From positions 1 through 64,000 of the forward strand of contig MEOF01000065.1 of assembly GCA_001769505.1 (NCBI GenBank): a DNA stretch of 64,000 nt, in the 5' to 3' direction. How positions within the stretch are numbered: the first letter of the stretch is position 1; the number at the start of each line of letters is the position of its first letter. The notes under the pieces are model-generated. The model was not told where the DNA came from, did no database searches, and saw only the letters and a list, made by a program, of their open reading frames with translations. This stretch comes from Bacteroidetes bacterium GWF2_33_38. GTDB lineage: Bacteria > Bacteroidota > Bacteroidia > Bacteroidales > GWF2-33-38. Below, in pieces: positions 7,556 through 10,337 of the stretch. The position numbers and the translations under genes are program-made.

Positions 7556-7642
7556 AAAACAAAAATTTAGAATTAAAACAAAAATTTAGAATTAAAACAA
7601 AAATTTAGAATTAAAACAAAAATTTAGAATTAAAACAAAAAT
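7556..7642 (-). repeat. 19-bp tandem repeat, 4 copies plus an 11-nt partial, within signal-peptide coding region
   Basis: Unit AAAACAAAAATTTAGAATT at 7556, 7575, 7594, 7613, identical copies. Confidence 0.97.
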
Positions 7643-8040
7643 GACGATCGTTTTTTCCATATCGTAAATGAAGGACACAAATATAGGTAAATTCCATCAT
7701 TTTGTAGAATTCCGCTTTTGGTAAAATTTGATAAAACACACTAATACCAATTGCCAATAGTATAAAGATTAGAAATAAGCCTCTAACTTTGTTTAGCAGT
7801 AAATATGCCGAAAATACAAAATCGCAATCAATTAATTATCAGTCATTTATACTTGAGTTAGATAGATTGTGTTTCAAAATGATTGTTAAAGAAATTTTGG
7901 AACAACAATGGTTAATGCCGATATTAAAGCAAAACAAGCATACAGAACGAAGTGAAAGTATGCGACATTTTGATGTTTAATCGGTATAATTTTTATTTTT
8001 TTGAAGATTATCGAAATTTTGAATAAATCAGTAATTTTCA

Positions 8041-8064: not shown

Positions 8065-8235
8065 GGTGGAAAGGGGGAAACCTTTACAACCATTTTGCTT
8101 TATAAACTTTACGAACATGATAAACTTTACGAACTTTAAACTTAAAAGAGGTGCAAAATATAAATTCAGGTTTTGACGATAAATAAAAATAAAATAAATA
8201 CATTTGAATAAAATAAACAAATGGATATATTGAAA

Positions 8236-8256
8236 ATACCCGCAATTTGCGGGTAT
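8236..8256. repeat. Leader hairpin upstream of the lipoprotein gene
   Basis: ATACCCGCA-att-TGCGGGTAT, 9-bp perfect arms, about 20 bp before the ATG. Confidence 0.6.
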
Positions 8257-8276
8257 ACAATTAAAAAGAAGAAATT

Positions 8277-8942
8277 ATGATTAAACAATTGACAATTCTT
8301 ATTACTGCAATATTGCTGCTTTCATGTAAAGGTGAAGCTGAAAAAGAATTTGAAGGAGTGATAACTTATAAAATTGACATTCAGTGTGACAATAAAGAAG
8401 CATTAGCCTATTATAAAAACACTTTTGGCTCAAAGGTAGTTTTCTATTACAAAAATGGTGATTTTAGAAGAGAGTTCTATTCTGTGGATAATAATTTAAT
8501 TAGAACAACTATCTACAAAGAGAATGCTAATAACAATTATCACTTTGGTTTAAATAATGATACAATAACTTTTCAAACAGCAGGTATTGAAAACTGTAAA
8601 ATTGAAACAATAAAATCAAAGAAAGACGAAACAACTATTCTTGATTTAAAATGTGATTACAATACTTTTAAAATAAGCAATGACACAATTGTTTATATGA
8701 ACTATAAAATGGAGTTTTGGACAAATAATGATATAATTCTCAATACAAATAGATTTAAAAAATTTAAGGATGGTAGATATGATTATTTAATAAGAGAAAC
8801 TAAATCACTCCCACTTAAATATTCTATGGATATAGGTATGGCTAAAATAAATTATACTGCAACAAATATTGATTATTCAGAATTAAAAGAAGAATTGTTT
8901 AATATTGATGAAAGCAAACCCCTTAAAGAATGGGATAAATAA
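8277..8942 (+). CDS. Putative lipoprotein of unknown function
   Basis: MIKQLTILITAILLLSCKGEAEKEFEGVITYKI: lipobox and body resembling Bacteroidota lipoproteins. Confidence 0.8.
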   Translation: MIKQLTILITAILLLSCKGEAEKEFEGVITYKIDIQCDNKEALAYYKNTFGSKVVFYYKNGDFRREFYSVDNNLIRTTIYKENANNNYHFGLNNDTITFQTAGIENCKIETIKSKKDETTILDLKCDYNTFKISNDTIVYMNYKMEFWTNNDIILNTNRFKKFKDGRYDYLIRETKSLPLKYSMDIGMAKINYTATNIDYSELKEELFNIDESKPLKEWDK

Positions 8943-8946
8943 AAAA

Positions 8947-9077
8947 GCCTAACAAAAAATATAGTGCATTTGGCAGATAGTGCTATATATGAAGATGATG
9001 GTAATAAATAAACACACTATTAAATTGAAAGATTGGAGCGTTGAAATGCCAAACGCACCATATTAAAAACGTTAGCC
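8947..9077. other. attC-like palindromic element 1
   Basis: GCCTAAC (matches RYYYAAC) ... AATATAGTGCATTTGGCA / TGCCAAACGCACCATATT (16/18 complementary) ... GTTAGCC; total 131 bp. Confidence 0.55.
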
Positions 9078-9092
9078 TCAATAACAATAATT

Positions 9093-10187
9093 ATGGAAAG
9101 AGTACTCGTAAATCCTAAGCATTTATTAATTCTACTTACTCTGATTATTTTTAATGTCAATCTGACCGGACAAGATGTAAAACAAATAGATAATTTTATT
9201 AAAAAAAAGAAAGTAATAACTTTTGATCTTCTTTATTCCAAAGATTCAATTCCAAACAATTTAAATGTCTCTATAATTGGAATCTTGAAATCTCAAAAAG
9301 ATCAGCAAATTATAATCCCTGCTGATTTATTAGCAAAGTACTTTATATCAAATGATGTAAAAGTAACTCCAGCAGGAAAAGTAATGCTATTAAATCGACA
9401 ATTAATCAAAAAGGATACAGCTTTTATCACATTTCAGTTTGCAGGAGACTTATCAATCTCAAAAATATTTGCTATTCCAATAAATTATAAAGGGAATTTG
9501 ATATTGAATTATTCAGGTAAAAACGGATTAAACGGAAATCATGGAGAAAATGGTAAACCAGGAATTATTTCTGGGAGTAGATCAATAGAACCAGGAAGAG
9601 GTGGTGATGGAGAAAATGGACAAGATGGTGGCAGCGCTTCTCAATATCATTTTTATTTTTCAGCTTTCGCTTCACTGGATAATGATCAAAAACAGTTAAT
9701 TAAAATAATTGTGCATGATAAGCATAATATTGCTATTGACAGCATGAAAATGGATGCAAATAGTTCCCAGTTGTTCATTGTATTAAATGGAGGAAATGGT
9801 GGTAATGGAGGAAATGGAGGAGATGGTGGTAATGGATCGGATGGGGATCGGCACTATACGCCCAGTTATGGTCAATTTGGAGCATTTGGAGGAAGAGGAG
9901 GAAATGGAGGGAACGGAGGGAATGGAGGACAAGCTATTTTATATTTCAATAGAGAAACTAGCTCAATACTTGATAGAATAACTGTAATAGAAAATGGAGG
10001 TAAAGAAGGGCATCGGGGTAATCAAGGAAAAATGGGAGCCAGAGGGATCAATTATTTCCTTGGAAAAGAATCCGACGATGCAAGGACTATACGAAATATG
10101 CATAGTGATATGCCTAATTTAAATGGAATTGATGGCCAAGTTGGGTTGAATGGCCAGGAAACTAAAATAATCTATTTTGATAATTAA
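9093..10187 (+). CDS. Secreted glycine-rich/collagen-like repeat protein
   Basis: N-terminal signal peptide; GKNGLNGNHGENGKPG, GGNGGNGGNGGDGGNGSDG, GGRGGNGGNGGNGGQ, GIDGQVGLNGQ. Confidence 0.8.
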   Translation: MERVLVNPKHLLILLTLIIFNVNLTGQDVKQIDNFIKKKKVITFDLLYSKDSIPNNLNVSIIGILKSQKDQQIIIPADLLAKYFISNDVKVTPAGKVMLLNRQLIKKDTAFITFQFAGDLSISKIFAIPINYKGNLILNYSGKNGLNGNHGENGKPGIISGSRSIEPGRGGDGENGQDGGSASQYHFYFSAFASLDNDQKQLIKIIVHDKHNIAIDSMKMDANSSQLFIVLNGGNGGNGGNGGDGGNGSDGDRHYTPSYGQFGAFGGRGGNGGNGGNGGQAILYFNRETSSILDRITVIENGGKEGHRGNQGKMGARGINYFLGKESDDARTIRNMHSDMPNLNGIDGQVGLNGQETKIIYFDN

Positions 10188-10204
10188 ATAATTATTGTTT
10201 CTGA

Positions 10205-10337
10205 GGCTAACGAGCCGTCAGCCGAGCAATGCGGTTAGTTTCCGGAGGCAGGCATTCACCAAACTTATTAATGATAGAGGTAAGCAAAGATAAGAACAAG
10301 TAAACCCCGCACTGCGGCTGCCGGCGGGGCGTTATAA
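10205..10337. other. attC-like palindromic element 2
   Basis: GGCTAACG...GCCGTCAGCCG (10214-10224) pairs with CGGCTGCCGGC (10315-10325), 10/11, then ...CGTTATAA; total 133 bp. Confidence 0.5.

Follow-up and report, generated by a model that had tools for sequence, protein, structure and literature searches.

A small satellite array of a chromosomal integron-type system of Bacteroidota very probably lies in the window, the 64,000-nucleotide stretch of the Bacteroidetes bacterium GWF2_33_38 genome analysed here. The array consists of an attI-like site followed by two cassettes, termed 1 and 2. Two attC-type hairpins and cognate cassette ends cut at G/TT accompany the attI-like site, and the same genome encodes a tyrosine recombinase that is followed by the same attI and a cassette. 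Judged from these sequences, the functional class is that of an integron, while the integrase and the site rules are other than those of the classical IntI kind. The system probably represents an undescribed, phylum-wide integron class, characterized by an integrase without the IntI-specific domain, HARP-like fork-binding modules, several attI sites per genome, private cassette arms of about 15 bp, a circular form that folds far better, and a bias towards capture.

Cassette 2 is the best-defined part of the window. An earlier note on this DNA had described two palindromes around a single gene as a possible integron cassette without an integrase. Both palindromes are present on the forward strand, E1 with 131 bp (8947–9077) and E2 with 133 bp (10205–10337). 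Their stems contain 24 and 22 paired bases, respectively, and their hairpin scores are high among all YAAC..GTTR candidates of the window. E1 runs from the R'' box GCCTAAC to the R' box GTTAGCC, and E2 from GGCTAAC to GTTATAA, the latter box beginning at 10331. The cut after G proposed in the note, applied at both ends (G^TT), yields a predicted mobile unit of exactly 9072–10331. The arms of the anticipated circle junction, CGTTAGCCTCA (9070–9080) and TGAGGCTAACG (10202–10212), are indeed exact reverse complements. Pairing continues between the left arm, GTTAGCCTCA-A-TAACAATAATTAT (9071–9094, forward strand), and the right arm, ATAATTATTGTTTCTGAGGCTAACG (10188–10212, forward strand). Ten exact bases are followed by looser pairing up to 25 nt (92%), such that 22 of the first 24 positions match; position 11, an A in the left arm, is mismatched, following the rule of the 61 array cassettes described below. 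Further CGTTA+6 pairs spaced 0.3–3 kb apart were absent from the window and from about 90 kb of other sequence. The cassette 2 ORF (9093–10187, forward strand) encodes a 364-aa secreted glycine-rich protein. The label 'collagen-like' fits it loosely: NGG repeats and a signal peptide are recognizable in the translation, for which Pfam gave no family.

E1 folds as the bottom strand, where its G.T pairs correspond to A.C mismatches on the top strand, and this asymmetry probably marks the bottom strand. Because a naive R''/R' hairpin scan returned many chance matches in this AT-rich genome, it was dropped in favor of covariance models. Strict-box pattern searches across the genome gave 0 matches, and an Rfam scan of the window returned a tRNA as its sole match. 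Model R2 was built from 27 recombinase-linked array sites and model R1 from six E2-family elements. E1, absent from the R2 training set, is recovered by R2 in the 64-kb window at 44.2 bits (E 2.2e-9), and E2 is missed by R2 in the same search. E2 scores 152 bits with R1, its own family model, which was built partly from E2. Copies of E2 that are 78–86% identical occur in other families of the order, partly behind other genes with matching ends, for example a GNAT acetyltransferase; R1 detected such elements in 13 of 295 genomes, one of which (G284) has nine sites. R1 also recognizes array sites at recombinase-linked loci (E 2e-5 to 1e-3). Since R1 recognizes array sites and R2 recognizes E1, both window hairpins are assigned to one system.

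In three E2-family elements, sequence resembling the 5' end of a group II intron takes the place of the R'' box, at CGT/T of the bottom strand (L046 from 1163 onward, in G165; L070 and L072, in G284). In L046, the intron appears to be interrupted by a further insertion, beyond which lie matches to group II intron domains D1–D4 and a reverse transcriptase gene. The sequence preceding these three sites had first been read as an IS end, and Rfam identified it as group II intron-like instead. Group IIC-attC introns insert by a TTGT/T rule (PMC7923331), with which the CGT/T position of the intron-like ends agrees. Another intron-like copy (L043/L069) sits at a non-attC place.

The cassette ends carry a common signature. 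From 73 array cassettes at 17 loci, 61 were kept, selected for ends matching over at least nine positions. The signature comprises 9–10 complementary bases, a mismatch at position 11 and then 3–4 further pairs. Position 11 is matched in none of the 61 cassettes, and in 59 of them the left base is A, giving A.C on the top strand and T.G on the bottom strand. Positions 12–14 are matched in 84–93% of these cassettes, compared to 32–40% for arms taken from different cassettes. The window cassette and cassettes of four other genomes (G200, G217, G095 and G284) also obey the position-11 rule. Five pairings of class 1/3 cassettes, a small sample, match over 7–12 positions without this rule. GTTR is present in all 61 array cassettes and the full GTTRRRY in 4, which resolves the earlier caveat that the window boxes deviate from GTTRRRY. 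Predicted folds are more stable for the bottom strand than for the top strand. The bottom strand of the window cassette folds at −35.0 kcal/mol in circular form versus −19.8 kcal/mol as an integrated site; the corresponding means at L169 are −33.9 and −24.8 kcal/mol (n = 10).

The window holds more than the one cassette first proposed, as an attI-like site and cassette 1 (an ORF plus E1) precede cassette 2. The attI-like site (8204–8259, forward strand, with the inverted repeat ATACCCGCAATTTGCGGGTAT at 8236–8256) was identified by its similarity to the site just 3' of the recombinase gene on contig C56 of the same genome (86% over 57 nt, E 1e-11). The cassette 1 ORF (8277–8942, forward strand), located between the attI-like site and E1, encodes a 221-aa putative lipoprotein for which no Pfam match was obtained. 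The window array is partly decayed, because the G/TT junction expected after the attI-like site is eroded (TATACAATTAAAAAG) and cassette 1 is without a cognate left end. Elsewhere in the window, at 7556–7650, tandem 19-bp repeats (AAAACAAAAATTTAGAATT) occupy the N-terminal part of a DUF6563 gene on the minus strand; given the repeats and the stops in frame, this gene is likely disrupted.

At many loci, the first cassette is preceded by the same attI pattern, an inverted repeat followed by TATAnaCnn|GTT. The genome of the window has at least seven attI copies, including those on C56, behind the recombinase, and at 8204–8259 of the window, together with at least 14 attC-like sites. Six attI copies run directly, at ..ATAT|GTT, into the starts of six different cassettes, each with A at position 11. 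The earlier note had suggested searching related genomes for the same flanks with a different gene; within this genome itself, that check came out in favor of the cassette reading, the joins lying at G/TT. Of 13 scored positions, the cognate right end agrees in all 13 on C56 (at 0.8 kb), C70 (7.7 kb) and C14 (8.9 kb), in 12 on C36 and in 10 on C29, and the cassette on C19 reaches the contig end. As the attI module occurs at several places, each with a different cassette, several arrays, that of the window included, appear to share one integrase. The 7.7-kb cassette on C70 (L277) encodes a 1650-aa helicase-like protein, and a large cassette at L169 (9202–11753) carries a BsuBI/PstI-type restriction-modification pair. 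An empty site was sought in relatives, none of which was close enough, and the region left of PAP2 was without synteny.

The recombinase of this genome is a 536-aa tyrosine recombinase (C56:2156–3766, minus strand), behind which lie the attI-like sequence shared with the window and then a cassette. The description 'integrase-less' thus holds for the window and not for the genome, which encodes an enzyme of a type different from IntI. The geometry, the G/TT cut and the Bacteroidota-specific analogue suggested in the earlier note are all supported. Pfam assigns Phage_integrase and SAM-like domains to the recombinase, with weak HARP signals in homologues, the best HARP score (PF07443) of 22.5 bits lying under the gathering threshold of 25. 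A HARP-like module is seen in the alignment and adopts a beta-beta-alpha-beta-beta-alpha arrangement in a structure model. HARP is a domain type linked to the recognition of forks and single-stranded DNA. An alignment of 17 homologues shows the catalytic set R, K, H, R, H and Y to be invariant. In genomes with E2-family elements, the recombinase often aligns to the IntI profile in two halves around a missing middle, and 64 residues separate the catalytic Lys from the HxxR box, compared to 106 in IntI1 and IntI3. The IntI-specific domain of about 40 residues is, by this spacing, absent. This additional domain, around patch III, is needed for IntI activity (Messier and Roy 2001, as cited in PMC9668308).

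Six homologues score 191–236 bits against TIGR02249, under the curated cut-off of 265. For a homologue modeled with AlphaFold2 (mean pLDDT 88), the closest fold is the Vibrio cholerae integrase solved on attC (2A3V, E 1.5e-17). In a phylogenetic tree, the HARP-type enzyme falls with IntI, IS91-linked and other recombinases and away from Xer; the IntI sequences form a clade of their own (100/100), and the finer branching is weakly supported. NCBIfam NF040815, named 'site-specific tyrosine recombinase/integron integrase', covers the core, which scores near or just over its cut-off, and NCBI applies this name to homologues on Bacteroidota plasmids. Fusions of HARP-like modules with tyrosine recombinases also occur in records that carry no Bacteroidota assignment, namely L227, L246 (an Undinarchaeales MAG) and L251 (a Spirochaetota MAG). 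These could be real or reflect MAG contamination, and the model found no site at the three loci.

Homologues of the recombinase (E ≤ 1e-40, some IS91-linked enzymes among them) are present in 111 of 295 genomes of the order. For 25 of 49 minus-strand matches, the contig ends within 600 bp of the 3' end of the match, as would be expected with repeats following the gene. Where contigs are long enough, arrays of hairpins of about 131 bp begin behind the recombinase gene, with 10–14 sites at L169 and L170 and, in a closed genome, 14 sites across 33 kb. The consensus array hairpin shows compensatory changes in 18 of 19 pairs, and the R' of each site matches the R'' of the next. R2 sites were detected in 174 of the 295 genomes of the order (59%, E ≤ 1e-4) and in 122 of 396 genomes of a phylum sample (31%, E ≤ 1e-12); the system thus appears to be present in roughly a third or more of the sampled Bacteroidota genomes. 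R2 was also run on 80 named loci that form an independent set, from Flavobacterium, Algoriphagus, Arundinibacter, Winogradskyella and other genera. Of its 76 matches there, 72 fall within the 347 kb downstream of the recombinases, at 23 loci and always in cassette orientation; the 607 kb upstream yielded the other four, all at L249. Among the 39 named loci whose downstream sequence extends to 2 kb or more, R2 found no site at 20, and some of these 20 encode other recombinases.

Sites and recombinase also co-occur: 80 of 89 genomes with the recombinase have sites versus 94 of 206 without it, an odds ratio of 10.6 with kinship ignored. In these 94 genomes, sites are present yet no recombinase scores above threshold. 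The proposed link between recombinase and arrays is one of position and co-occurrence. Behind the same recombinase type, a plasmid of Chryseobacterium sp. SNU WT5 (L308, 16001–31000) carries an array that also contains a group II intron gene and an IS110 transposase, possibly a mobile integron of Bacteroidota. Among the retrieved loci, a small sample, no cassette recurred in different contexts.

We considered whether the window is instead a CALIN/SALIN remnant left after a classical integron had lost its IntI, with cassette movement due to a canonical IntI acting in trans or in the distant past. The same G/TT geometry and bottom-strand hairpins would fit such a remnant, and canonical IntI does occur in the order, in 2 of 198 genomes. 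Yet none was found in the genome of the window, and no attC array was detected beside the two canonical genes (L017 in G009 and L016 in G187). The two genes agree with earlier reports of integrase-only elements in Bacteroidetes (PMC9024848). Moreover, dozens of genomes have their model matches behind a recombinase of the HARP type, only 4 of 61 ends obey GTTRRRY, and neither R1 nor R2 has matches in class 1/3 attC regions. A classical remnant is thus very unlikely.

It is less likely still that Xer or another tyrosine recombinase, for example an IS91-linked one, moves the cassettes, with the HARP-type enzyme a mere neighbor. Such enzymes are also present, and Xer can act on hairpin-bearing sites in some phages. 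However, the arrays adjoin the HARP type, and the few non-HARP loci in the same scan are without sites, except L249. This locus, from Ichthyenterobacterium magnum, encodes a recombinase without the N-terminal module, and its four upstream sites are on the opposite strand, unlike those of other loci. At L110 (G217), L108 (8011–8847, G270) and L111 (G095), a tyrosine recombinase accompanies a transposase gene of the IS91 type, with several copies in G217; the IS91-linked tyrosine recombinases of relatives were set aside as transposon genes.

Least likely of all, the hairpins could be terminators or REP-like repeats with ends matching by chance or as a transcript-end stem, since they lie directly 3' of stop codons and palindromes are common in genomes, but the complementary ends flank a gene about 1.1 kb apart, unlike a single hairpin, the position-11 rule and cognate pairing extend over 61 cassettes, R' matches the R'' of the next site in arrays, six different genes follow one and the same attI, and matches are concentrated behind one recombinase.

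For the integron-type system favored here, we infer recombination itself at these sites and propose the following course. The HARP-type recombinase, with its intact catalytic set, would bind the folded bottom strand of attC and join its G/TT to that of attI, so that circular cassettes could be inserted next to each of the attI copies, on its downstream side. Circularization would bring together both ends of a single cassette, which would form a stem of about 15 bp that includes, at position 11, a G.T wobble on the bottom strand. Each site in an array would consist of half-arms from two different cassettes, and its outer stem would therefore be shorter and its fold weaker. The longer stem of the circle should then favor insertion over excision, giving stable arrays.

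If this reading is correct, the system would be a major route of gene exchange in a phylum dominant in soil, sea and gut, and one also found on a Chryseobacterium plasmid. It would imply that the IntI-specific domain is dispensable for using folded single-stranded sites and would provide a second enzyme family for comparison with IntI. The origin and upkeep of cassettes would become testable, because each cassette carries co-varying ends. Bacteroidota are considered almost free of integrons: a 2022 IntegronFinder survey reported one complete integron in the phylum, from Salinibacter, and only integrases without cassettes had been reported earlier (PMC9024848). A search of openly accessible literature yielded no account of the system, although the name that NCBI gives to the family of the recombinase core, NF040815, includes 'integron integrase'.

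Two features of a functional integron are found here: attC sites, as imperfect inverted repeats that are bounded by R'' and R' boxes (AAC...GTT) and fold as the bottom strand, and an array beside an integrase gene with attI (on C56 and in many other genomes). Of a third, recombination of attI with attC and of attC with attC by the integrase through single-stranded attC, the intact catalytic residues are seen. The classical attC definition of R' GTTRRRY and R'' RYYYAAC does not hold for these sites. Compared to IntI chromosomal integrons such as the V. cholerae superintegron, the system shares attI, the G/TT cut, a gene for a tyrosine integrase and arrays whose cassettes hold one gene each, as well as attC hairpins of about 130 nt, a folded bottom strand (inferred here) and, in some sites, an extrahelical base. 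It differs in an integrase that lacks the IntI-specific domain and has HARP-like N-terminal modules, in an array located downstream of the integrase stop codon and in the same direction, in the loss of GTTRRRY, in an end complementarity of about 15 bp with a fixed mismatch, and in several attI sites per genome. Like CALIN and SALIN elements, the window carries attC cassettes without a neighboring integrase; unlike them, its array has an attI-like site of its own and the genome a matching recombinase. The XerA-like family NF040815 shares the catalytic core, at scores near or just over its cut-off, but that family is defined on the core, and HARP modules and cassette arrays lie outside its definition. 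Sequences resembling group II intron 5' ends occupy the bottom-strand CGT/T of E2-family sites, in the manner of group IIC-attC introns; they are visitors, whereas the system that mobilizes the cassettes is another.
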